A stretch of 64,000 bases of DNA from Bordetella parapertussis (GTDB lineage: Bacteria; Pseudomonadota; Gammaproteobacteria; Burkholderiales; SG8-41): NCBI GenBank assembly GCA_945861275.1, contig CAMATZ010000015.1, forward strand, positions 1-64,000, given 5' to 3'. A program made the position numbers and the translations under genes. The notes below the pieces were generated by a model. It was not told the origin of the DNA. It worked only from the letters and a program-made list of their open reading frames with translations, and searched no databases. Below, in pieces: positions 12,299 through 25,099 of the stretch (within the stretch, counting starts at the first letter, position 1; each line of letters begins with the position of its first letter).

Positions 12299-13354
12299 AT
12301 GAAAACGGGCATGCTTACCCTTACGGCCTGGATGACCGCGGCCGGACTGCTGGTTGGTTTGAGCGGAATTACGCAGGCGCAACAACTCAAACGCTCGTGG
12401 TATATGACGCCGCAGGTTTCCTTTTTCGATCCTGATAATTCCTACGGCACGTCGGGTACCGGCAGGGGCGCCAGTCTGCTTTTAGGCAGGCAGGTGAGCG
12501 ATAATTTTGACATGCAGATGCTGCTGGGTCATTCACGCCGCTCGGAGCTGGGTAACAAAGTGCAACAAACGCTGCTGGGCGTGGATGCGGTTTTTGTGTT
12601 CAACCGTGGCGAATGGCAGCCGATTTTCTTCATGGGCGTAGGCGCCGAGCGTGACCAGAGCACGCTGGCCGGCGTGGGTACCAGTGGTACTTCGCCGTAC
12701 GCCAGTGCCGGCGCGGGCCTGCGCTGGATGTTCAAAGACAATCTAGGCGTGCAGGTCGACTATCGCCGCGTCGAAGGCTTCATGCGTGATTCCGCAAAGT
12801 GGGGTTTCAATCGCAGCGGCAACAACTATGTCAACCTGGGCTTGGTATGGACCTTTGGCGGTGAATTGCCGCGCCCGCCGGTGGTGGCTGCCGCGCCGCC
12901 GCCCGCGCCTGCTCCGAAGATAGTTGCCGCACCTTCACCGCCTGTGGTTGCGCCCCCGCCGCCGCCCCCACCGCCCCCGCCGCCGCAACGCATTACTTTA
13001 GCGGCCAGCGAATTGTTTGAGCTGAACAGTGCGCGTCTGTCCAAATCCGTGGGTGCGCTTGACGCCTTCGCGGAGGCGATGAACAGCAATCCGCAGATTA
13101 GCAATGTGATGATCTCTGGTCATACCGATCAACTTGGCACGGCGGCTTACAATCGTGGGCTGTCGCAGCGACGCGCCGATGCGGTGAAGGCGTATCTGGT
13201 TAAAAAGGGCATCGCCGCCGCCCGCTTGACAGCTCAGGGCATGGGATCCAGCAAACTGGTGACTGACTGTAAAGAGACTACCCGCGCCGCGATGATTAAA
13301 TGTGGCACTCCCAATCGCCGCGTGGAAATCGAGCCGATTACGGTACCCAGGTAA
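12299..13354 (+). CDS. OmpA-family outer membrane protein
   Basis: A 351-residue outer membrane protein. A 27-residue signal peptide (cleavage after GITQA) leads into an eight-strand OmpA-like barrel, residues about 30-190. A Pro/Ala linker with an unbroken run of about a dozen prolines near residues 218-230 follows, then a C-terminal OmpA peptidoglycan-binding domain. That domain shows VMISGHTDQLGTAAYN and LSQRRADAVKAYLV, and two Cys (DCKET, IKCGTPNRRVE) that can form the usual disulfide. ATG 12299 has a Shine-Dalgarno in CAGGAGAACA. The frame is open upstream, but the signal peptide fixes the start. It probably anchors the envelope. It is a separate transcription unit from the fab genes. 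Confidence 0.9.
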   Translation: MKTGMLTLTAWMTAAGLLVGLSGITQAQQLKRSWYMTPQVSFFDPDNSYGTSGTGRGASLLLGRQVSDNFDMQMLLGHSRRSELGNKVQQTLLGVDAVFVFNRGEWQPIFFMGVGAERDQSTLAGVGTSGTSPYASAGAGLRWMFKDNLGVQVDYRRVEGFMRDSAKWGFNRSGNNYVNLGLVWTFGGELPRPPVVAAAPPPAPAPKIVAAPSPPVVAPPPPPPPPPPPQRITLAASELFELNSARLSKSVGALDAFAEAMNSNPQISNVMISGHTDQLGTAAYNRGLSQRRADAVKAYLVKKGIAAARLTAQGMGSSKLVTDCKETTRAAMIKCGTPNRRVEIEPITVPR

Positions 13355-13408
13355 ACGCAGGATCGGGTGCCAGGTAATTACAGCGCACTCCGAACGCCTG
13401 TTGCGTAG

Positions 13409-14365
13409 ATGTCGCGCCGTCGCTTCCTGCTGAGTGTAACGGCAGGCGGCGCGTGCGCCGGGCTTGTAAACGTCCCTTGCGCATTCGCCCAGGCGAGCAC
13501 TGCCGGCGCGGCAAGCAACCCCATGGCCCACGGCCGTCCCAGCGAAACAGCGCAAGGCGCGGCAGTGCTGCGCGCCGCTCACCAGATACTGGATGCGCCA
13601 CGCATACTCACCGACCCGCTTGCCTTGCGCATTATCGGCACCGCAAGCTGGTCGCGGCTGCTGTCGGTGCCGGAGCTTTTTCAAGGCGGCCGTTCCTTAC
13701 GTGCGTCTGTTGCATTGCGCAGCCGCTTTGCAGAGGACGAACTGGCTCAGGCGGTCCACCGCGGCATTCGTCAATATGTCGTGCTGGGCGCTGGGCTCGA
13801 CACTTTTGCGTATCGCAACATTCACGCGGGATCGCACTTGCGTGTGTTCGAGGTCGATCATCCCGCGACGCAAGTGTGGAAACGTCAGCGGCTGCATGAG
13901 GCTGGCATAGCCGTTCCTGATTCGCTGACATTTGCGCCGGTGGATTTTGAGACGCAAACACTGACCGATGGCTTGAACCGCGCGGGTTTTGACGCCAGCC
14001 AGCCGGCGTTCTTTTCCATGCTGGGTGTGGTGATTTATCTGACCAGGCCGGCGGTGATGGGGACGCTGCAGTACATCAAGTCGTTGGCGTCCGGCAGCGA
14101 AATCGTATTTTCGTATAGCGTGCCGTCATCCGCTTTGAGCGACGGCCAGCGCTTGTCACGTGAATACGCCGCGCGGCGCGTAGCCGCGCGAGGCGAGCCG
14201 TGGATTACGCATTTCGATCCATCGGCTTTGAAACGGGACCTTGAGCAACTGGGCTACACGCGCATTTTTGACCTTGGCCCGGAAGAGGCCAACGATTGGT
14301 ATTTCAGCAATCGCACGGACGATCTGGGCGTGGACACCAGCAGACTGATGCAGGCCCGCGTCTGA
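13409..14365 (+). CDS. Class I SAM-dependent methyltransferase (LCMT/PPM family) with Tat-like leader
   Basis: A 318-residue protein of the leucine-carboxyl-methyltransferase-like (TIGR00027-type) family. YVVLGAGLDTFAYR near residues 127-140 is the SAM-binding motif I, followed by VFEVDHPATQ and FSMLGVVIYL, all typical. The odd part is the N-terminus: MSRRRFLLSVTAGG plus a hydrophobic stretch to AFAQAS, a plausible twin-arginine signal peptide. A periplasmic SAM enzyme is unexpected. It may be a non-exported hydrophobic leader, or the start may be further in, at Met39. The methyl acceptor is unknown. Confidence 0.82.
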   Translation: MSRRRFLLSVTAGGACAGLVNVPCAFAQASTAGAASNPMAHGRPSETAQGAAVLRAAHQILDAPRILTDPLALRIIGTASWSRLLSVPELFQGGRSLRASVALRSRFAEDELAQAVHRGIRQYVVLGAGLDTFAYRNIHAGSHLRVFEVDHPATQVWKRQRLHEAGIAVPDSLTFAPVDFETQTLTDGLNRAGFDASQPAFFSMLGVVIYLTRPAVMGTLQYIKSLASGSEIVFSYSVPSSALSDGQRLSREYAARRVAARGEPWITHFDPSALKRDLEQLGYTRIFDLGPEEANDWYFSNRTDDLGVDTSRLMQARV

Positions 14366-14417
14366 TTTAGCTGCAACCCTGAACGACCGAAAACCATAAT
14401 AACGCGCCGAGGAAATC

Positions 14418-15698
14418 ATGCGTTCCGTTGTCGTGGCTTTGTATCAGCCCCGTCATGCTTTGCGGATGGGTGCCGTCGCACTGGCGGCTGCGACAACTGC
14501 CATGGCGCAGCCGCCTGCCGCGCAACCCGCGGGCGCGCCGCAAACGCAGCCGGTGGAGCAGGCGATCAAGCCGCCGCCGCCACCACCATGGCAGCAGGGT
14601 CGTCCCGATGCCATGAAGGACTCGACGCTCACGCCTCATCCGCCGGGACTTACCGCGAAGCCCGCTGCGCAAATGAAGCTCGATCAAATCAAGCTGCCGC
14701 CAGGATTCAAGATTGAGTTATGGGCCGAGGGTATGCCCAATGCACGCTCCATTGCCGTGGGCGCCAAAGGCACGGTATTTGTTGGAACGCGGCTGGCGGG
14801 CAATGTCTATGCCGTTACCGATAAGGGGGGCATGCGGGACGTAAAAACTCTTCTCAAGGGTATGAGCATCCCCAATGGGCTGGTAGTCAGCAATGGCGAT
14901 CTGTATGTAGCGGAACACACACGCATACTGAAGTTCGCGAACATCGAAGCGAATCTCGACAATCCGGGCAAGCCTGTGGTGGTGTTCGACGGGCTGCCCA
15001 AGGATGCGCCGCACGGCTGGAAATACATGGTGATGGGGCCTGATGGCTGGCTCTATTTCAACATCGGCGCGCCGTGCAATATCTGCGTGCCGCCGGATAC
15101 GCATGCGCAAATCGTGCGTGTGGATCCCCTGAACGGCATATTGGAGACGGTTGCCAGGGGCGTGCGTAACAGCGTTGGCATGGCGTTTCATCCGCAAACC
15201 AGGGAATTGTGGTTTACCAATCACGGCCGCGACTGGATAGGCGAAGACCTGCCGCATGACACGCTGCATCGCCTGTCGAAAAAGGGCGTGCATTTCGGAT
15301 ACCCATACTGTCATCAGGGCGATCTGCCCGATCCGGAACTGGGCAAAGGGCGTTCATGCGCCGAATTCGCGCCGCCCGCGCTGAAGCTCGGCGCGCATAT
15401 CGCGCCGCTGGGGATGAGGTTCTACACCGGAAAAATGTTTCCCGCCGAATATCGCAATCGCATGATCATTGCCAATCACGGCTCGTGGAACAGGAGCAAC
15501 ACGATCGGTTTTAACCTGATGCAAGTCACGCTCGACAGCGCGGGCAAGGTAGTGAAGTACGAGCTGTTTGCCGAGGGCTGGGCGCAGGGCAACACTTACT
15601 GGGGCCGCCCGGTGGATGTGCAGGTGATGAGCGATGGCGCGCTGCTGGTGTCGGACGACGTGGCCGGCGCGCTGTTTCGCATCAGTTACAAGAAGTAG
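14418..15698 (+). CDS. PQQ-dependent sorbosone/glucose dehydrogenase-family protein
   Basis: A 426-residue periplasmic six-bladed propeller of the soluble quinoprotein glucose / L-sorbosone dehydrogenase family. A signal-like N-terminus runs to about residue 31 (ATTAMAQPP), followed by a Pro-rich linker (QAIKPPPPPPW). The propeller shows LPPGFKIELWAEG, APHGWKYMVMGPDGWLY with the candidate catalytic His, ARGVRNSVGMAFHP with the Arg-Asn pair that contacts PQQ in the family, FTNHGRDWIGEDLPHD and IANHGSWNRS. The substrate is probably a sugar or alcohol but cannot be named. A TonB receptor resembling the PQQ transporter follows. In frame just past the TAG is what looks like a cytochrome c tail. 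Confidence 0.87.
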   Translation: MRSVVVALYQPRHALRMGAVALAAATTAMAQPPAAQPAGAPQTQPVEQAIKPPPPPPWQQGRPDAMKDSTLTPHPPGLTAKPAAQMKLDQIKLPPGFKIELWAEGMPNARSIAVGAKGTVFVGTRLAGNVYAVTDKGGMRDVKTLLKGMSIPNGLVVSNGDLYVAEHTRILKFANIEANLDNPGKPVVVFDGLPKDAPHGWKYMVMGPDGWLYFNIGAPCNICVPPDTHAQIVRVDPLNGILETVARGVRNSVGMAFHPQTRELWFTNHGRDWIGEDLPHDTLHRLSKKGVHFGYPYCHQGDLPDPELGKGRSCAEFAPPALKLGAHIAPLGMRFYTGKMFPAEYRNRMIIANHGSWNRSNTIGFNLMQVTLDSAGKVVKYELFAEGWAQGNTYWGRPVDVQVMSDGALLVSDDVAGALFRISYKK

Positions 15699-15752
15699 CG
15701 CGACGAACAGGCTATTGAAAATCTGGCACACTATGTCGCGGGCCTGAAGTAA
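15699..15752 (+). pseudogene. In-frame remnant of a cytochrome c C-terminus
   Basis: Directly after the dehydrogenase TAG, the same frame continues RDEQAIENLAHYVAGLK then TAA at 15750-15752. 'Ile-x-x-Leu-Ala-x-Tyr-(Val/Ile)-x-x-Leu' is how many c-type cytochromes end. No CxxCH haem motif is left. The most economical reading is deletion of most of a downstream or fused cytochrome c, leaving only its last helix. Chance similarity of 17 residues cannot be excluded. Confidence 0.45.
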
Positions 15753-15774
15753 ACGGACAGCCACAACACGGAGC

Positions 15775-17895
15775 ATGACCATGAAGCGCACATCGATGCC
15801 TATTGCCGTTGCCGCCGCGCTGACATGTGGCAGCGTCTATGCGCAGCAAAGGCCGACAACACTGCCCGAAGTGTCGGTGAGCGCCACGCGGGTCGAGCGC
15901 GACAACATGGATATTCCAGCAGCCATCGACACTATCGATCAGCGCACCATCCGTGAAGCCAATCCGCAGGTGAACCTTTCGGAAGCGCTGGGGCGCGTGC
16001 CGGGCATCACGGTGTCGAATCGGCAAAACTACGCGCAGGATTTGCAGATATCGTCGCGTGGTTTTGGTGCGCGTTCGACGTTTGGCGTGCGCGGCTTGCG
16101 CCTGATTGCTGATGGCATTCCCGCCACCATGCCCGACGGGCAGGGGCAGGCGGCAACCTTCAATCTGTCATCGGCGAAAAGCATTGAAGTGATGCGCGGT
16201 CCGTTCGCCAGTCTGTATGGCAATGCTGCGGGTGGTGTGGTGCAAATCTTCACCGCGGACGGACCGCAGGTGCCCACCGTTTCGCTCAACGCGCTCTACG
16301 GCAGCTTCAATACCTACAAGCTCGATGCGCAGTACGGCGGCCAGCATGGACCGCTTAACGTGGTGATAGATACATCGCGATTCGAGACCAGCGGTTATCG
16401 TGATCACAGTTCAGCGCGCCGCGATCATCTCAATGCCAAATTCAAATATGACCTGGGCAGCGCCGGCGTGCTGACGCTGGTGCTCAATGCGCTGGATCAG
16501 CCGGAGACTGAAGACCCATTGGGGTTGACCGCCGCGCAGGTGGCACTCAACCCGAAGCAGGCCGGCGGCAATGCATTCACCAACGCCTACAATTTCAACA
16601 CGCGCAAAAGCATTGCGCAAAATCAGGCGGGGCTGACGTACGAGGTGTCGCTGGCGGCGAGTACCAAACTGAACGCACGGGTTTACGCTGGTGACCGGCA
16701 GGTGACGCAGCATCTGGCGATTCCGGTGGCGACACAGGCGGCAGCGACACATTCCGGCGGTGTGGTCGATCTGGATCGCGGCTACGGCGGGGCGGCGTTG
16801 CGGCTAACGCACGAAACCAAACTCGCCGGCGGGCCATTTACGTTGAGCGCCGGTGTTGATTACGACCGTATGCAGGAACGCCGTAATGGATTTTTGAATA
16901 TCCTCGGTGTCACCGGTGCATTGAAGCGCAATGAGGACAACACCGTAACCAATACCGATGTCTATGCGCAGGCCGAATGGCAGATCATCAGGAATTTGAG
17001 CTTACTGGCAGGTTTGCGCCACAGCCGGGTCGGGTTTTCGTCGACGGACTATTTCATCGCTGCGGGCAACCCCAATGACAGCGGCGCACTGGATTATTCG
17101 CGCACCACGCCGGCCGCGGGTGTTACCTACAAAATTACGCCCACGTTGAACGTTTATGCCAACGTGGGCAAAGGTTTTGAGACGCCGACGTTCGCGGAAC
17201 TGGCATACCGGCCCGGTGGCGCCACCGGATTGAATTTCGGCTTGCGCGCGGCGAACAGCCTGCATCGCGAAATCGGCCTGAAGTCACTGGTGGGCGACAA
17301 CGGGCGTGTGAACATTTCATTGTTTCGCATTGATGTCAGTGATGAAATTGTGGTCAACAGCAACGTGGGTGGCCGATCGGATTTCAAAAATGTTCAGGGC
17401 ACACGCCGCGAAGGCCTTGAATTTGGCTATGCGCAAAAATTTACGCGCGGCTTTGAATCGGCACTTGCTTACACCCTGCTCAACGCGCGCTTTATGCAGC
17501 CCTTTACCACGCTGACCGGGACGCCTGCCGTGGTAGTGCCGGTGGCGGCCGGCAGCAAGTTGCCGGGTATTGCCGCTAACACGTTGTTCGGCGAACTGGT
17601 GTGGCGTTATTCCGCCTATGGCTTTCACGCGGGCGTTGAAGTGCGGCACAGCGGCAAGGTCTGGGTGAATGATCAGAACGCGGAATTCGCCGGCGCGTAC
17701 ACGATTTTCAATCTGCGCGCAGGCCTGCAACAGCGCGGCAAGAACTGGAAGCTCACCGAGTTTGTGCGGATCGATAACGCCGGCAACAAAGGTTACATTG
17801 GTTCAGTGATAGTCGCCGAGGCCAACAACCGTTACTACGAACCGGCGCCGGGGCGCACTGCGATGATCGGCATCAACGCGGAATTATCATTTTAA
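15775..17895 (+). CDS. pqqU: TonB-dependent receptor, YncD/PqqU-like (PQQ uptake)
   Basis: A 706-residue outer membrane TonB receptor. It has a signal peptide to VYAQQ, a TonB-box-like LPEVSVSAT, a plug around residues 40-160 and a 22-strand barrel ending ELSF. Plug and barrel segments match my recollection of E. coli YncD (PqqU), the TonB-dependent PQQ transporter, closely: NRQNYAQDLQ, RGFGARSTFGVRG, IPATMPDGQGQ, RGPFASLYGNA, GKGFETPTFAELAYR and NNRYYEPAPGR. Having it beside a PQQ-family dehydrogenase supports the same role. Start ATG 15775 follows CACGGAGC; ATG 15781 is an alternative. No PQQ biosynthesis gene is in the window, which fits scavenging, but this is inference. Confidence 0.85.
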   Translation: MTMKRTSMPIAVAAALTCGSVYAQQRPTTLPEVSVSATRVERDNMDIPAAIDTIDQRTIREANPQVNLSEALGRVPGITVSNRQNYAQDLQISSRGFGARSTFGVRGLRLIADGIPATMPDGQGQAATFNLSSAKSIEVMRGPFASLYGNAAGGVVQIFTADGPQVPTVSLNALYGSFNTYKLDAQYGGQHGPLNVVIDTSRFETSGYRDHSSARRDHLNAKFKYDLGSAGVLTLVLNALDQPETEDPLGLTAAQVALNPKQAGGNAFTNAYNFNTRKSIAQNQAGLTYEVSLAASTKLNARVYAGDRQVTQHLAIPVATQAAATHSGGVVDLDRGYGGAALRLTHETKLAGGPFTLSAGVDYDRMQERRNGFLNILGVTGALKRNEDNTVTNTDVYAQAEWQIIRNLSLLAGLRHSRVGFSSTDYFIAAGNPNDSGALDYSRTTPAAGVTYKITPTLNVYANVGKGFETPTFAELAYRPGGATGLNFGLRAANSLHREIGLKSLVGDNGRVNISLFRIDVSDEIVVNSNVGGRSDFKNVQGTRREGLEFGYAQKFTRGFESALAYTLLNARFMQPFTTLTGTPAVVVPVAAGSKLPGIAANTLFGELVWRYSAYGFHAGVEVRHSGKVWVNDQNAEFAGAYTIFNLRAGLQQRGKNWKLTEFVRIDNAGNKGYIGSVIVAEANNRYYEPAPGRTAMIGINAELSF

Positions 17896-17966
17896 AACCC
17901 TAGCGTAAATCACCCAGGGAATTCGTTGCGTTGTGCACTGGCGATGGTTTTTGAGAGAGGGATGGC

Positions 17967-19712
17967 ATGAATACTGTATCTGACCACAGCACACCGCTGG
18001 TGCGCCACAAACTGCCTGAGCTGTGCGGTGCGCATGTGCTGGCGCGCGCGCTGAAGCGCCACGGCGTCGAGGTGTTGTTCGGACAAAGCCTGCCGTCTGC
18101 GCTGCTGCTGGTGATACCCGAGTTTGGCATGCGGCAGATTGCGTATCGAACCGAGAATGCGGGTGCGGCGATGGCGGACGGCTATGCACGCGCATCGCAA
18201 AAAGTGGGTGTAGTCACCGCGCAAAACGGGCCGGCAGCGGCCTTGCTTGCGCCGGGATTGGCTGAGGCGCTGAAGGTATCAGTGCCCATCGTCGCCATTG
18301 TGCAGGATGTGCGGCGCAACCAGACCGACAAGAACGCGTTTCAGGAGCTTGATCACTTTGATATTTTTCGCGGCTGCGCAAAATGGGTGAAGCGCGTTAG
18401 TGACATCACCCGCATTGAAGACTACGTGGATATGGCGTTTACCGCCGCTGCCGGCGGAAGGCCGGGGCCGGTGGTGCTGCTGTTTCCGCAGGATTTGCTG
18501 CTGGAACCCGTGACACAGGAGGCAGGTGAAGTGCGGCATGCCTCGCTTGGAACCTATCCGCTCGACCGCTGCGTGGCGGACCCGGCACGCATCGAGGAAG
18601 CCGCACGCTGGCTGGCGCAGGCGCAGCAGCCGTTGATTGTTGCCGGCGGCGGCGTGCATCTTTCCGCCGCGCATGAGGTGCTGGCGCGGCTGCAGGAGTC
18701 GGCGAGCCTGCCGGTTGCAACCACCAGCATGGGCAAGGGTGCGGTGGCCGAGACGCACGCGCTGTCGCTGGGTGTGATCGGCTACTTCATGGGCACCCGC
18801 GGCATGGCGCGACATCTGCGCGCGCTGGTGGAGCAGGCGGACTGTGTGCTGTTCGTAGGTGACCGCACCAACCAGAATGGCACCGATTCATGGACGCTGT
18901 TTCCGAAGAACGCGCGCTACATCCACATCGACATCGATGGGCAGGAGGTCGGACGTAACTACGAGGCCTTGCGGCTGGTGGGCGATGCCAAGCTCACGCT
19001 CAGCGCGCTGAACGACGCCATGCTGCGCCTTGATCTGGGAAAACGCCGCGCTGCGCGCAGCGAAGTCGAGCGAAAAATCGCCGTGGGTAAAAAAGCGTTT
19101 CAGGAGGAAGCGCACAGCATGTTGAATTCGGACGCCGTACCTATACGCCCGGAACGGTTGATGCACGACCTGAATGCATTGATTTCGCCCGACACACTGA
19201 TTGTGACCGACGCCAGTTACTCGTCGATCTGGGCGATGAATTACCTAGCCGCGCAAAGCGCGGGGCAGCGCTTTCTAACCGGGCGCGGGCTGGCAGGTTT
19301 GGGCTGGGGATTCCCCGCTGCACTGGGCGCGAAAATCGCGCACCCTGCGCGTGACGTTGTGTGCATCGCAGGCGATGGCGCCTTCGCGCACATGTGGTCA
19401 GAGCTCGAGACCGCAGTGCGCATGAAGATTAAAGTGACAATAATTGTCCTTAGTAATCAAATACTTGGATATCAATGGCACGCGGAGGAGGTGATGTATG
19501 GCAGTCACACCGATGCCTGCCAATTTTCACCAGTGGATCATGCGGCTATTGCGCGCGCGTGTGGCTGTGAGGGTGTGCGCATTGAAAAGCCCGCGGATTT
19601 CAAGCCCGCGTTGGAGCGTGCACTGCGCTCTTCAACCACCACCTTGATCGATGTCGTGATTGATCCGAAAGCGTATCCGCCGATTACGCTGTATGAAGGC
19701 AGGATGGGGTAG
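17967..19712 (+). CDS. Thiamine-diphosphate-dependent enzyme, acetolactate synthase-like (I)
   Basis: A 581-residue ThDP enzyme with the full three-domain layout. The Pyr domain has Glu63 in YRTENAGAAMADGYAR, the activating glutamate. The middle domain is around residues 200-340 (LIVAGGGVHLSA). The PP domain carries the metal/ThDP motif from GDGAFAH at residue 469 to the Asn of VLSNQ. Family members include acetolactate synthase, glyoxylate carboligase, sulfoacetaldehyde acetyltransferase and 2-oxoacid decarboxylases. The usual IlvB FAD contacts are not evident to me, so the reaction is open. A Shine-Dalgarno (GAGAGAGGGATGG) precedes ATG 17967. A second ThDP enzyme follows. Confidence 0.85.
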   Translation: MNTVSDHSTPLVRHKLPELCGAHVLARALKRHGVEVLFGQSLPSALLLVIPEFGMRQIAYRTENAGAAMADGYARASQKVGVVTAQNGPAAALLAPGLAEALKVSVPIVAIVQDVRRNQTDKNAFQELDHFDIFRGCAKWVKRVSDITRIEDYVDMAFTAAAGGRPGPVVLLFPQDLLLEPVTQEAGEVRHASLGTYPLDRCVADPARIEEAARWLAQAQQPLIVAGGGVHLSAAHEVLARLQESASLPVATTSMGKGAVAETHALSLGVIGYFMGTRGMARHLRALVEQADCVLFVGDRTNQNGTDSWTLFPKNARYIHIDIDGQEVGRNYEALRLVGDAKLTLSALNDAMLRLDLGKRRAARSEVERKIAVGKKAFQEEAHSMLNSDAVPIRPERLMHDLNALISPDTLIVTDASYSSIWAMNYLAAQSAGQRFLTGRGLAGLGWGFPAALGAKIAHPARDVVCIAGDGAFAHMWSELETAVRMKIKVTIIVLSNQILGYQWHAEEVMYGSHTDACQFSPVDHAAIARACGCEGVRIEKPADFKPALERALRSSTTTLIDVVIDPKAYPPITLYEGRMG

Positions 19713-19736
19713 GTCGGAACGCGCAGCGGTTCCGAC
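19713..19736 (+). terminator. Perfect hairpin right after the first ThDP gene
   Basis: GTCGGAAC and GTTCCGAC form a perfect 8-bp stem around GCGCAGCG, beginning on the base after the TAG. No T-run follows, so it is either a weak or Rho-assisted terminator, or a mRNA-stabilising hairpin. Confidence 0.45.
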
Positions 19737-19836
19737 AGTGATGTTGGCACGTAAGATAATGTCAGTACTGAGGTGTGGCCGCGATCGAAGCGGCGGGCGT
19801 GTGAGCTGAAACTATTCAAACAAAGGATGGCTAGCG

Positions 19837-21519
19837 ATGGCAAGCATACAGGCGGGTCAGGCAGTAATCGAAACGTTGGGGGCGGAAGGGGTTGAGTACG
19901 TGTTCGGTGTGACGGGCACCACCACCAACACCATGGTGACGGCGTTACACGGGCGCAGCGACATGCGCTTTCTCGACACGCGCCACGAGGAAGGGGCCGC
20001 GTTCATGGCCTACGGCTATAGCCGCGCGTCGGGCAAGCCTGCGGTGTGCATGACGACTTCGGGGCCGGCAACGATCAACCTGATGACCGGCATTGCGTTG
20101 GCCTACAAGGGCCGTGCGCCGGTGGTGGTGATCGCAGGCGACGTCGAACGCTCGAACCTCGACCGCGACGGGGCGCAATCCTTCGACCTCGTGAACCTGT
20201 TAAAGCCGGTCACTTATCTTGCCCGGCACGCGCACCAGACCGAGCGCATACCGCAACTGCTCCACGACGCGTTCCGCGCCGCCCTAGCGGGCAAGCGCGG
20301 CCCCGCCTTTGTCAACATACCGCGCGACCTGCTGGAGAACCAGACCATAGACGTGGAACTGGCGCGTCCGTCCTCGTACCGGCCGGTCGAGTGGCGCATG
20401 CCGGGGGACCCCGACGCCATCCGGCGGGCGGTGGAGGTGCTCTTAACCGCGGAGCGGCCGCTGCTGCTCGCGGGCGGCGGCGTCATAGACAGCGAGGCGA
20501 GCGAGGAGGCCACAGCACTCGCAGAGCTCGCCGGCATGGCGATGGTTCCCTCGTACGGGCACAACGACGCTGTGCCGAACAGCCACGCGTTATTCGTGGG
20601 GACACCCGGCAATCGGGGCGCGCCGGAAGCACTGGAAGCGATCAATCACGCGGATGTCATACTTGCGCTGGGTTCGCGACTCAATCAACATTCGACGCAC
20701 TGGAATTACAGCATCATCAATCCGAAAACGCGCATCGTGCAGGTGGACATAGACGTGCAGGAAGTCGGGCGCAACTATCCGGTGAAAGTGGGCATCGTCG
20801 GCGACGCGAAAGCCGTGGCGCAGCAGTTGCTGCAGGCGCTGCGCGCCGGGAAACAGAATCAACGAGCGGCATGGCGCACGGAAATCGCCGCGCTCAAGGC
20901 GCGACGCAAGGCCCGCCTCGAGGCGGAGTTGTCATTGACGGGCGATCCCATGATGCCGCAACGCGTGTATCCGGAGTTGCGCAAGGTACTGCCAACCGAT
21001 TGCATGGTCACGCTGGACGCCGGTGTAGCGCCGGGGCTGACTTATGACCGGCTGAATTTTGAGCTGCCCCGTACTTTTTTCAATTATTCGGGACACGGCG
21101 GACTGGGCATGGGCTACGCGGTGGGGCTGGGCACCAAGCTCGGGCGGCCGGAACGGCCCGCGATCAGCATACAGGGCGACGGCGGCTTTCTTTACACATC
21201 GCAGGAGATCAACACCGCCGTGCGCCACCGCATCCCGCTGGTGAGCATTGTGCTGAACAACAGTTGCCATGGCGCGGAAAAAGCGCAGCAGCAGCGCCAC
21301 TTTGGCGCGCGCTACGTCGGGGTCGATTTGGTCAACCCGCGCTTCGACCGGCTGGCAGAGGTTTACGGGGCGCGCGGCTACTACGTCACGCGCCCGCAGG
21401 ACATTGCCGGGACCGTTGCCGCCGCGCTCAAACTCGATGTTCCCAGTGTGATCGAAATCCCTGTCGCGGAGTATTTTCCGCTGGCGGCGAAATTGCCCGG
21501 AGGCACGGGCGGGCACTAA
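19837..21519 (+). CDS. Thiamine-diphosphate-dependent enzyme, acetolactate synthase-like (II)
   Basis: A 560-residue ThDP enzyme. Glu51 in DTRHEEGAAFMAYGY is the expected catalytic glutamate, LLLAGGGVI marks the middle domain, and GDGGFLYTS at residue 447 to VLNNS is the ThDP/metal motif. It is clearly homologous to its neighbour but divergent, so the pair is not a recent duplication. The 5' half (about 20100-20570) looks richer in C/G-ending codons than the rest by eye. A Shine-Dalgarno (AAAGGATGG) precedes ATG 19837. Substrate unknown; a 2-oxoacid decarboxylase or carboligase is most likely. Confidence 0.85.
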   Translation: MASIQAGQAVIETLGAEGVEYVFGVTGTTTNTMVTALHGRSDMRFLDTRHEEGAAFMAYGYSRASGKPAVCMTTSGPATINLMTGIALAYKGRAPVVVIAGDVERSNLDRDGAQSFDLVNLLKPVTYLARHAHQTERIPQLLHDAFRAALAGKRGPAFVNIPRDLLENQTIDVELARPSSYRPVEWRMPGDPDAIRRAVEVLLTAERPLLLAGGGVIDSEASEEATALAELAGMAMVPSYGHNDAVPNSHALFVGTPGNRGAPEALEAINHADVILALGSRLNQHSTHWNYSIINPKTRIVQVDIDVQEVGRNYPVKVGIVGDAKAVAQQLLQALRAGKQNQRAAWRTEIAALKARRKARLEAELSLTGDPMMPQRVYPELRKVLPTDCMVTLDAGVAPGLTYDRLNFELPRTFFNYSGHGGLGMGYAVGLGTKLGRPERPAISIQGDGGFLYTSQEINTAVRHRIPLVSIVLNNSCHGAEKAQQQRHFGARYVGVDLVNPRFDRLAEVYGARGYYVTRPQDIAGTVAAALKLDVPSVIEIPVAEYFPLAAKLPGGTGGH

Positions 21520-21820
21520 GGGCCGGCACCCGTTCTGAACACGGTGGCCGAACCGACCGCATAGGGTCCCCCCGAAATCCTGCGACACCCTATGACGAAC
21601 GTTAAGTTGTGGCGCTGCAGCATTGCGCAGTGCATGAATTCGCACCACCGGCTTAGGAGTTGATTGATTGCGGAGCGGCTATCGAACGGTTAATCTTGTG
21701 GCTGGGGAGCATCTTGTATTGTGAGGTTAGCAACCTAAATACGTCAGGTTGTTTTCTGCCTGATTCAGGAGAGTTATTAAAACGCCATAAATAATTTGTT
21801 GAGTTGAGGAGGGAGGGCTG
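21520..21820 (+). other. Intergenic leader before the DUF1302 gene
   Basis: About 300 bases with no supported gene. The first 140 bases are GC-rich and the last 160 AT-rich. It ends in a strong Shine-Dalgarno (GAGGAGGGAGGG) for the DUF1302 gene. A short hairpin, AGGTT-AGC-AACCT, lies inside the candidate promoter spacer near 21723-21735. Confidence 0.5.
21714..21741 (+). promoter_or_regulatory. Candidate sigma-70 promoter for the DUF1302/DUF1329/RND genes
   Basis: TTGTAT at 21714-21719, a 16-base spacer and TAAATA at 21736-21741. The small inverted repeat AGGTT/AACCT sits between the boxes and could be an operator. Predicted leader is about 75 bases. Confidence 0.4.
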
Positions 21821-23710
21821 ATGAAGATGGATGCGCGCATTTCCGCACAACAATTCCTGGCTGCAGCAATGGTGCTGGCGTTTTTGCCCCTATCGGCGCA
21901 GGCCTTCCAGATCAAGAATCAGGACGGCAAGGTCATTGGCAGTTTTGACACCACGGTAAGTATTGCCGGGTCGTGGCGTGCCCAGGGACGGGATTCGTCG
22001 CTGGTGGGCATTACCAATGGCGGCACCTCGCGCGATATCAACAGCGACGACGGCAATCTCAATTACAACAATAACAAGCTGTTCTCCAGCCCGATCAGGG
22101 TTACTCACGAACTGGGGCTAAAGCAGGGCAACTACGGCCTGTTTGCCCGCGGTACGTATTTTCACGATTTCTCCTATCACCGCCAGGACGAGAGCGTGGC
22201 CAGTGGGTTCGGTTCCACCGGCAAGGACCGTTTGGGCCAGGACGCGGAACTGCTGGACGCTTTTGTTTATGGCGGATTCAACAGCTTCGGGGGACGCAAA
22301 CTCAATGTCAGACTTGGCAATCAAGTCCTCAACTGGGGCGAAAGTACTTTTATCCCCAATGGCATCAATGTCATCAATGGCGTGGATGTGGCCAGGCTGC
22401 GCAATCCGGGCGCGGATCTGAAAGAGGCACTGCGTCCTACACCGATGATCTGGGCCTCGCAGGGGCTGACCGACCAGATCAGCATGGAAGGCTTTTATTC
22501 CTTCCGCTGGCGGGAAACACGCATCGATCCACGGGGTTCGTACTTCAGCACCACGGACGCGCTGTCGCCTGATGGGGACAAGGTGTTTGTCGGCAGCGGC
22601 CGCCGTGTTGACCAACACCTTGCTCCCGGCCTGTTCATTCCTGGGGCGACCCAATCCGCGGCGGTATGGGCGCCGCGGTCGGCGGACCGTAAGCCAGGCA
22701 ACAATGGTGAATACGGCGTTACCTTACGCGCGCTGCTGCCTGCGTTGAATAACAGTGAACTCGGCTTGTCTTTTGTCAATTATCATAGCCGCACGCCTTT
22801 TCTCTCCGGGTTTCGCGGCGGCGCCACAGTGGCCGCGAGTGCTGGTGTCGGCGGTTGCTTGACACCGAACTTTGGTTTTCTGCTTACCGGGGGCGCCATA
22901 GGTGCACTGTGTACAGCACCCGCCACCTATTTCGCTGATTATCCGGAAAACATCCGCTTGTTCGGCTTGAGTTTTAATACCGCCGGGCCCTGGGGCATCG
23001 CGTTGCAGGGTGAGTATTCGTACCGTCCGAATCAACCGCTACAACTCGCCCCCATCGAAGTGATCCTCGCTGCCGGCGGGCTTGCCAACAATATTACCGG
23101 CGGCACCGTAGCGGCTGCCAGCGTTCCTATCGGTCGCGAGATCACCGGCTTTCAGCGGGTAAATATGCACCAAATGCAATTTACCGGCACCAAGATATTT
23201 GGTCCTACGCTGGGAGCTGAATCGTTGACAGTGGTCGGCGAGGTGGGCGCCTCCTATCTGAATCTGCCCTCGAATTTGCTGTTCGCTGGGCCGGGGGTGG
23301 TGCTGCCTGGACTTGGGTCTTCGACGGCAACGACCTCAGGTTCGACTCAGCCCGGCATGGCGGGTTATGCCACCAAACATTCCTGGGGCTACCGGCTGGT
23401 GGGGGCGCTGTCTTATCCCAACGCCATTGCCGGCGCGACGCTGATTCCACGGGTAGCGTTTTCTCATGACGTGCATGGCGTGGGCCCGACTTTCAATCAG
23501 GACGTCAAAGCAGCGACCTATAGTCTGAGTGCGATTATCAAGCAACAATGGCAGGCTGACATTGCCTACACCTCTTACTGGGGTGGGAGAACTTATTCGG
23601 GCACGGATCCTGGGCCCGTTCCCGCAGGACAAAGCCCGACCTATTCCACCAGTGCCAATGCTATCAAAGACCGGGATTTTATCTCGGTCAGTCTGCGCTA
23701 CTCGTTCTGA
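21821..23710 (+). CDS. DUF1302 family outer membrane protein
   Basis: A 629-residue protein. The signal peptide is cleaved after LSAQA. The mature part is rich in aromatic-alternating strands and ends in SVSLRYSF with a C-terminal Phe, all marks of an outer membrane beta-barrel. FQIKNQDGKVIGSFDTTVSIA and the segment with NLNYNNNKLFSSPIRVTHEL are typical of DUF1302 proteins. It is the first gene of a set with DUF1329, a Ycf48-like protein and an RND/MMPL transporter, a combination seen in many proteobacteria. It may be an outer membrane channel for a hydrophobic or aromatic compound; that is inference. Confidence 0.88.
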   Translation: MKMDARISAQQFLAAAMVLAFLPLSAQAFQIKNQDGKVIGSFDTTVSIAGSWRAQGRDSSLVGITNGGTSRDINSDDGNLNYNNNKLFSSPIRVTHELGLKQGNYGLFARGTYFHDFSYHRQDESVASGFGSTGKDRLGQDAELLDAFVYGGFNSFGGRKLNVRLGNQVLNWGESTFIPNGINVINGVDVARLRNPGADLKEALRPTPMIWASQGLTDQISMEGFYSFRWRETRIDPRGSYFSTTDALSPDGDKVFVGSGRRVDQHLAPGLFIPGATQSAAVWAPRSADRKPGNNGEYGVTLRALLPALNNSELGLSFVNYHSRTPFLSGFRGGATVAASAGVGGCLTPNFGFLLTGGAIGALCTAPATYFADYPENIRLFGLSFNTAGPWGIALQGEYSYRPNQPLQLAPIEVILAAGGLANNITGGTVAAASVPIGREITGFQRVNMHQMQFTGTKIFGPTLGAESLTVVGEVGASYLNLPSNLLFAGPGVVLPGLGSSTATTSGSTQPGMAGYATKHSWGYRLVGALSYPNAIAGATLIPRVAFSHDVHGVGPTFNQDVKAATYSLSAIIKQQWQADIAYTSYWGGRTYSGTDPGPVPAGQSPTYSTSANAIKDRDFISVSLRYSF

Positions 23711-23740
23711 CCCGCGAAAAGAATCTGAGGAGAAAATAAC

Positions 23741-25099
23741 ATGCGCTACTTACGATACGCGGTGTTGAGCGCCGCGCTCGCGCTGTCTACTACGCTGGCT
23801 CTGGCTGCAGTACCGGCGCAGGAGGCTGCACAACTGGGCAAAAACCTCACGCCTTTGGGCGCCGAGCGCGTCGCCAATGCTGCCGGCACCATACCCGCCT
23901 GGGATGGCGGCCTGACCAAGCCGGTCGCGGGTTACACGGAAGGGGGCCATTACCCCGACCCCTACGCCGGCGACAAGCCCCTATTCACCATCAATGCCGC
24001 CAGCATGGAGAAGTACAAAGCGCAGCTGACACCGGGGCAGATGGCAATGCTCAAAACCCATCCCACGTGGAAAATGAACGTCTATCCCGCACGGCGCAGC
24101 GCATCGTTTCCTGACGGGCATTACAAGGAGACTGCTGCCAATGCCGCGAAAGTCAATCTGGTAAGCGGCGGCAATGGTTTCTCCGGGACCAAGGGTGGCA
24201 TTCCATTTCCAATCCCCAAGAGCGGGCTGGAAGTGATCTGGAATCATCTGGCGCGCTATCGCGGTGATACCTATGGTCTGAACTGGAGCCAGGCGTCGGT
24301 GCAGCGTGATGGCAGTCATACCCTGGTGCGCTTCGAGTATGAGTACGATTTTATCTACGGCAACCTGTCCAAGCCGGAAAATACACGCGAAGACAACAAG
24401 CTGTTCAACTTTCTGCAGACGGTGACCGCGCCCGCGCGCCTTGCCGGCCAGGTTTTGCTGGTGCATGAGTATGCGGATCAGGTGAAGCAGGCGCGCAGTG
24501 CATGGACTTATAACCCGGGCCAACGCCGGGTGCGTCTTGCGCCGAACGTGGCTTACGATAATCCGGGAACGGCTGCCGATGGCTTGCGCACCAATGATGA
24601 CTTCCTGATGTTCAACGGCGCGACCGATCGCTATGAATGGAAGCTGGTCGGCAAGCGCGAGATCTACATCCCGTACAATTCCTACAAGCTGACCGGTAAC
24701 TCGGTGAAGTATACCGATGTGCTGAAACCTGGGCACCTCAACCCCGACCTTGCGCGCTATGAGTTGCATCGGGTATGGGTGGTGGAAGCGACCCTCAAAG
24801 ACGGCACCAGTCATGTCTACAAGCGGCGCACTTTCTACGTCGATGAAGATTCGTGGATGGCGGCGGTAGTGGACAAATACGATGCCCGCGGCGAACTGTG
24901 GCGCGTGGCGGAGCAGCACAGTATTAATTTCTACAATATTCCGATGACCTATCCGACCCTGGAAGTACATCATGATCTCCAATCCGGCCGTTACATCGCC
25001 ATGGGGTTGCGCAACGAAGAGTCCAAGGTATATGAGGGCATCAAGCGCACTGACGCGGATTTTTCACCGTCAGGCTTGCGCGGTATCGGCAATCGCTAG
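23741..25099 (+). CDS. DUF1329 family (LolB-like) exported protein
   Basis: A 452-residue protein with a signal peptide ending ALAA. DUF1329 signatures include LGKNLTPLGAERVANAAGTIPAW (residues 31-53), a region around WNHLARYRG, and the C-terminal GRYIAMGLRNEE. It has no lipobox Cys, so it is probably soluble periplasmic or loosely attached to the outer membrane. Spacing to the DUF1302 gene is 30 bases with a Shine-Dalgarno (TGAGGAG), so they share an operon. Family function is not established. Confidence 0.88.
   Translation: MRYLRYAVLSAALALSTTLALAAVPAQEAAQLGKNLTPLGAERVANAAGTIPAWDGGLTKPVAGYTEGGHYPDPYAGDKPLFTINAASMEKYKAQLTPGQMAMLKTHPTWKMNVYPARRSASFPDGHYKETAANAAKVNLVSGGNGFSGTKGGIPFPIPKSGLEVIWNHLARYRGDTYGLNWSQASVQRDGSHTLVRFEYEYDFIYGNLSKPENTREDNKLFNFLQTVTAPARLAGQVLLVHEYADQVKQARSAWTYNPGQRRVRLAPNVAYDNPGTAADGLRTNDDFLMFNGATDRYEWKLVGKREIYIPYNSYKLTGNSVKYTDVLKPGHLNPDLARYELHRVWVVEATLKDGTSHVYKRRTFYVDEDSWMAAVVDKYDARGELWRVAEQHSINFYNIPMTYPTLEVHHDLQSGRYIAMGLRNEESKVYEGIKRTDADFSPSGLRGIGNR

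Follow-up and report, generated by a model that had tools for sequence, protein, structure and literature searches.

The outer membrane protein PqqU of E. coli (formerly YncD; PDB 6v81 and 9c4o) is a full-length TonB-dependent transporter, and PqqU, its spread and the scavenging of pyrroloquinoline quinone (PQQ) are already known (Munder et al. 2025, PMC12124388). In that work, a PQQ dehydrogenase was recognised in only 67% of PqqU carriers, for which one reason offered, for some groups, was that the search had missed an enzyme; four Burkholderiales genomes were reported to have PqqU in synteny with the operon for PQQ biosynthesis. On the enzyme side, the closest described proteins are CcPDH and TrAA12, two fungal AA12 PQQ pyranose dehydrogenases (PMC6881789, PMC6881810), and bacterial relatives of CcPDH had been noted earlier through BLAST as lacking its cytochrome domain (PMC4133262). 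Here we describe a locus on a stretch of 64,000 nucleotides (the window, spanning the first 64 kb of contig 15 in a genome of 5.52 Mb and 95 contigs, 96.65% complete), where the gene for a PqqU-type receptor follows the gene for an AA12-like dehydrogenase, and which we read, with a probability of roughly 78%, as a cassette with which a PQQ auxotroph acquires and uses PQQ. The features concerned are the following:

13409..14365, + strand: LCM/TIGR00027 methyltransferase gene, a neighbour judged to lie outside the module
14418..15698, + strand: gene for a predicted AA12-like six-bladed PQQ dehydrogenase of the GSDH family (“sorbosone dehydrogenase”), 426 amino acids, with an N-terminus that by eye suggests export
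15699..15752, + strand: relic of a diheme cytochrome c gene, made of its last codons (EQAIENLAHYVAGLK, 15705-15749) and the stop, from its match to the C-terminus of an intact cytochrome (locus L077) and from shuffles
15775..17895, + strand: gene for a predicted PqqU-type TonB-dependent PQQ transporter, 706 amino acids, from the NCBIfam PqqU model, identity to E. coli PqqU and signature residues; an alternative ATG lies at 15781, where a GGAG is better spaced (by eye)

Like the four Burkholderiales genomes, the window comes from a related bacterium and links PqqU to another PQQ gene set; the neighbour there makes PQQ, whereas the neighbour here would use it, in a genome with no synthesis genes over cut-off. 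The XoxF3 clusters of Acidobacteria and Gemmatimonadetes (PMC10875860) also unite a quinoprotein, a c-type cytochrome and a TonB receptor, but their enzyme is an eight-bladed lanthanide methanol dehydrogenase rather than an AA12-like one, and the receptor is not identified as PqqU in the available excerpts of that paper. In E. coli K-12, pqqU (L171) adjoins yncE in divergent orientation and, unlike in the window, has no dehydrogenase neighbour. This yncE is annotated as encoding a PQQ-like domain protein, and the XoxF3 clusters likewise include a YncE (PMC10875860).

A preliminary description, made from the letters of the window, had proposed that uptake and use of PQQ are encoded side by side, and this idea is supported by the receptor signature, the missing pqq matches and the conserved linkage presented below. 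All three genes that it named lie on the + strand where it had placed them, and the five motifs that it quoted are present in the receptor translation. Its statement that the receptor comes directly after the dehydrogenase holds for the adjacency of the two genes but not for the 76-base gap between them, which is not empty and holds the cytochrome gene relic.

We looked at the linkage among 74 genomes of the same family (labelled G###, the window's own genome being G000; L### stands for loci and C for contigs). PqqU matches were present in 47/74 genomes (1e-60) and GSDH relatives in 39/74 (1e-30). The 48 PqqU loci that were read are the window plus 47 fetched ones, G034 contributing two, and a profile scan of the 3 kb around PqqU detected a GSDH gene in 25 of them and a PQQ alcohol dehydrogenase (PQQ-ADH) gene in five. 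When only the 29 loci with at least 2.5 kb on both flanks were considered, 19 had GSDH, three had PQQ-ADH and seven had neither. Among the 25 linked loci, PqqU is downstream of the dehydrogenase on the same strand in 20 and convergent with it in five (G018, G019, G020, G025 and G027). The FabF gene near the pair in the window has a counterpart in no more than two of the 47 other PqqU loci, those of G068 and G071, indicating that the pair outlives its surroundings. G073 and G072 were not judged, their PqqU gene being at or near a contig end and the nearest GSDH gene on a separate contig.

A third gene belongs to this arrangement in relatives. Between the dehydrogenase and PqqU, 16 of the 25 linked family loci encode a protein of ~200 amino acids with two CxxCH motifs, for which NCBIfam gives as best match, under cut-off, the periplasmic diheme shuttle PdsA (67 bits). 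In the window, the 76-base gap encodes EQAIENLAHYVAGLK followed by a stop, and 13 of these 15 residues are identical to those that close the intact cytochrome encoded at L077 (G004). We compared nine cytochrome-less gaps with shuffles that preserve base composition only. Against a C-terminal consensus, 0/500 shuffles were as good as the window relic, G068 and G071 also beat 500/500 shuffles, and G069, G065, G063, G066, G062 and G060 did not stand out. Against 13 whole cytochromes, 0/200 shuffles were as good for the window, G068, G063 and G060 and 2/200 for G071, while nothing was detected in G069, G065, G066 and G062; the G060 stretch was broader in this test than in the consensus test. G068 and G071 appear to carry the same scar in a more decayed state; the relics in G071, G063 and G060 are tentative, and G063 and G060 may carry other fragments. 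We conclude from these comparisons that the ancestral order here had all three genes and that the cytochrome gene was lost in the window lineage, with about 15 terminal codons left. Cytochrome genes also accompany related enzymes elsewhere: each of two AA12-like paralogues of the window's own genome (contigs 6 and 1; L086 and L087) adjoins one, as do 20 of the 30 GSDH loci that were fetched away from PqqU in relatives. Other variants were seen around these genes: a paralogous AA12-like gene and its cytochrome adjoin a PQQ-ADH-like gene, with no PqqU, in L172 (G061:C115) and L178 (G071:C12); PqqU is split across two frames in G004 (L077) and G006 (L078); and a cytochrome fragment lies next to PqqU without a dehydrogenase in G014 (L059).

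The pair was then sought in 150 genomes drawn evenly from the order. GSDH was found in 54 (1e-60), PqqU in 51 (1e-150) and both in 40, a co-occurrence with a Fisher odds ratio of 22 (p 7.6e-15) in a test that ignores kinship. The two genes are at most 3 kb apart in 10 of these 40 genomes, namely in the window's and in nine others from six other families. In all nine non-window pairs, the dehydrogenase gene adjoins a gene for a c-type cytochrome, diheme in five cases and monoheme in four; in eight, this gene lies between the dehydrogenase and PqqU. The two genes side by side, suggested as something to survey, are shared by many relatives and recur in six further families, and the complete unit is a three-gene cassette of dehydrogenase, c-type cytochrome and PqqU. 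Further away, 66 more distant named loci included 49 well-flanked PqqU loci, 12 of them with a quinoprotein within 4 kb (four AA12-like, seven PQQ-ADH and one aldose sugar dehydrogenase, Asd). Linkage of PqqU to a quinoprotein thus occurs often in some lineages, and many others lack it.

When the label “beside PqqU” is traced on a GSDH tree of 60 rows, it requires 11 changes (bootstrap 10-12); well-supported branches force no fewer than eight of them, and shuffled labels give a mean of 20.3. This tree leaves out pieces shorter than 800 bases (L049, L179 and L201, for example), includes six named loci only, and has long branches that meet (L117/L145 and L122/L127). A single gain of the linkage without losses is excluded by the 11 changes; one gain with many losses remains compatible with them.

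Several observations weigh against the cassette reading. In the family, seven of the 29 loci with adequate flanks have no GSDH and no PQQ-ADH gene at up to 3 kb from PqqU, although an Asd-type PF07995 protein is encoded in each of these seven genomes. In the order, the two genes are apart or on different contigs in 30 of the 40 genomes that have both, and outside the nearest group no quinoprotein lies within 4 kb at 37 of the 49 well-flanked named PqqU loci. The Fisher test of co-occurrence leaves kinship out. The window itself has no cytochrome gene, and its genome has at least 12 further PQQ-enzyme candidates besides the dehydrogenase of the module. On the receptor side, the score of 674 bits does not reach the 1200-bit cut-off of the NCBIfam PqqU equivalog NF041535, and two PQQ-contact positions are altered relative to E. 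coli (Q310 to L314 and N477 to A474).

The best-surviving alternative builds on some of these points and holds that the PQQ brought in by the receptor supplies every quinoprotein of the cell, the adjacency being inherited with no special coupling. The genome encodes at least 13 candidate PQQ enzymes (nine PQQ-ADHs over cut-off, one Asd-type and three AA12-like), which makes it probable that the importer supplies more enzymes than its neighbour; PqqU genes without a neighbouring quinoprotein gene are numerous elsewhere, and at five of the 48 family loci a PQQ-ADH stands beside PqqU instead. Yet the pair is retained amid changing flanks and in two orientations, it recurs with a cytochrome in six other families, and the GSDH tree requires 11 changes in the linkage label. 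Shared service and linkage are also mutually compatible, and we consider this alternative, with an adjacency devoid of special coupling, unlikely.

The cassette reading further requires that the dehydrogenase uses PQQ. Matches to sequence models are modest: Pfam PF07995 gives 53.7 bits (gathering cut-off 25) with a best stretch restricted to residues 245-419, TIGR02604 matches below its cut-off only, and a single-sequence PDB search found no chain. These results would suit a lactonase-like or structural propeller that has lost its use of PQQ. Structure comparison nevertheless gives a six-bladed propeller whose closest matches are CcPDH and TrAA12, with PQQ enzymes clearly above other propellers. 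All PQQ and calcium contacts of CcPDH (R273, H363, R430, N431, D451, H539, H560, W563, N564 and R621) are retained in the window enzyme, as R110, H199, R250, N251, D272, H327, H354, W357, N358 and R397, and they are nearly invariant across 60 homologues; the cytochrome partner in relatives also speaks against a propeller without the cofactor, which we consider very improbable. Arg408, a feature of bacterial soluble glucose dehydrogenase (sGDH; PMC6881789), is replaced by V399 in the window and by V, T or A in 60/60 homologues, and it is absent from the fungal enzymes too. The dehydrogenase is more similar to the fungal AA12 PQQ pyranose dehydrogenases than to sGDH or Asd of bacteria, and PQQ use is predicted. 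Unlike CcPDH and TrAA12, it is bacterial, has 426 amino acids in one propeller, and carries neither a fused cytochrome b nor a cellulose-binding domain; in relatives of the window, a separate c-type cytochrome gene takes the place of the fused cytochrome.

The receptor, full-length like that of E. coli, consists of a Plug domain and a barrel. Among the 22 NCBIfam models listed, TonB_rec_PqqU is the best (674 bits) and TonB-siderophor the runner-up (135 bits). The likeness to PqqU far exceeds chance: the two PDB entries of E. coli YncD/PqqU score ~555 bits, and no other chain exceeds 38. The alignment to E. coli PqqU that the preliminary description had called for shows 42% identity across 667 aligned positions. 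The PqqU signature combines an aromatic residue (Y/F/W) at E. coli position 99 with Arg304 and Arg365 (PMC12124388); the window receptor has F103, R308 and R370. The less conserved contacts Lys274 and Arg536 are present as K278 and R534, and Q84, Q121, Q308 and Y481 are retained as Q88, Q125, Q312 and Y478; the Tyr99, Q310 and N477 of E. coli are Phe, Leu and Ala here. The signature was found in 42/42 family receptors, window included, and in 78/78 named-locus receptors, after a length and score filter had dropped six of 48 family loci and two of 80 named loci (some named loci are on the same contigs as family genomes), and it was absent from 13/13 other TonB receptors located near PqqU genes. 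We call the receptor “PqqU-type” because the equivalog cut-off is not reached, and predict from its conserved residues that it is a transporter importing PQQ. A different ligand, such as a siderophore, cobalamin or a lanthanide chelate, could be argued from this cut-off and from the two altered contacts; considering the retained signature with K278 and R534, the scores of at most 135 bits for other receptor models and the lack of the signature in other TonB receptors, we give it hardly any credence.

The preliminary description had also raised the possibility that pqqABCDE are missing. Searches for pqqB, pqqC and PqqD in the window's own genome gave no match (PqqA was not among the families searched), and pqqE gave a single match of 50 bits for a cut-off of 381, a level that 14 control genomes reach as well. 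One of the 74 family genomes has a pqqC over cut-off (G057, 318 bits), showing that the pqqC search works, and G057 has no PqqU match; G035 has a 45-bit match under cut-off. That the cell makes PQQ with genes lost in assembly gaps, a view favored by the 95 contigs, the 96.65% completeness, the place of PqqA outside the search and the usual clustering of pqq genes, so that one gap could hide all, is scarcely credible given these pqqB, pqqC, PqqD and pqqE results and the restriction of pqqC to one family genome lacking PqqU.

Going back to the PQQ acquisition-and-use cassette, its working could be as follows. PQQ released by other cells and scarce outside would be captured by the PqqU-type receptor, which would use TonB energy to bring it across the outer membrane. 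Once in the periplasm, it would load, along with Ca2+, the AA12-like dehydrogenase encoded next door, which may then oxidise a sugar or an aldehyde outside the cytoplasm, judging from the known activities of the family. Electrons would pass to the c-type cytochrome and onward to the respiratory chain; since the cytochrome gene was deleted in the window lineage, a different cytochrome would have to take them there. In this most likely scheme, conserved residues speak for import and for cofactor binding, and we infer the electron transfer and the substrate.

PqqU and AA12-like enzymes are known, and no description of a cassette of PqqU, an AA12/GSDH enzyme and a cytochrome was found in the open-licence papers searched, which makes the three-gene cassette apparently undescribed there. 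A broader proposal is that, across one order, PQQ auxotrophs have assembled or retained this cassette repeatedly with different dehydrogenase subclades, and that AA12-like users are missed by searches for eight-bladed enzymes, explaining part of the quinoprotein-less PqqU carriers; we see the chances of this proposal as evenly balanced. Genome G001, which has the complete cassette and no PF13360 (eight-bladed type) match, is an example of how the six-bladed AA12-like family is a candidate for the missed PQQ enzyme. The cassette also offers a genetic handle (importer, enzyme and cytochrome) for finding the natural substrate, and it suggests that bacterial “sorbosone dehydrogenases” of the AA12-like type may run on PQQ from neighbours.

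The neighbouring genes were compared with 53 loci (47 PqqU loci of other genomes, five further stretches of the own genome and one of G057). The adjacent methyltransferase, once thought to belong possibly to the module, was rejected as a member: it has no tblastn match at 1e-15 in these loci, an open reading frame of 81 amino acids in G068 matching part of it. Its start, MSRRRFLLSVTAGGACAG, resembles a Tat export signal by eye, which is odd for an enzyme that needs cytoplasmic S-adenosylmethionine. Downstream, positions 17967-25099 encode two thiamine diphosphate (ThDP) enzymes, followed by DUF1302 and DUF1329 proteins; one of the ThDP enzymes scores above cut-off with a model for an acetolactate-synthase subfamily. 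The ThDP and DUF genes were also rejected as module parts: both ThDP genes were found only at the nearest genomes, G068 and G071, and DUF1302 in G071 only, the G068 stretch stopping short of it. A scan of 13300-18050 gave one promoter-like and five terminator-like sites, no excess over shuffle means of 2.1 and 5.4.

Other PQQ enzymes of the family showed features of their own. A PQQ-ADH over cut-off is encoded on the same contig ~7 kb past the window (G000:C15:71046-72590), and three PQQ-ADH genes stand in tandem on contig 85 of the own genome (G000:C85, L088). The second Asp of an Asp-x-Asp at the catalytic site of PQQ-ADHs is a mark of lanthanide-dependent enzymes. This Asp-x-Asp is present in 13 of 14 aligned PQQ-ADH rows of the family (including L069-L071, L080, L081 and L088), the fourteenth being truncated there. 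In L149, L151 and L160 (Massilia, Pseudoduganella and Duganella) and in L069 and L070, PqqU is near an Asp-x-Asp PQQ-ADH and a second TonB receptor that lacks the signature; as a guess, PQQ and a lanthanide carrier may possibly be taken up jointly at these five loci.

The nearest named relatives of the window are metagenome-assembled betaproteobacteria, whose names suggest that the order is probably Burkholderiales as GTDB defines it. The two nearest public contigs (L091 and L093), also metagenome-assembled, carry the title Bordetella parapertussis, which is probably a misnamed record.

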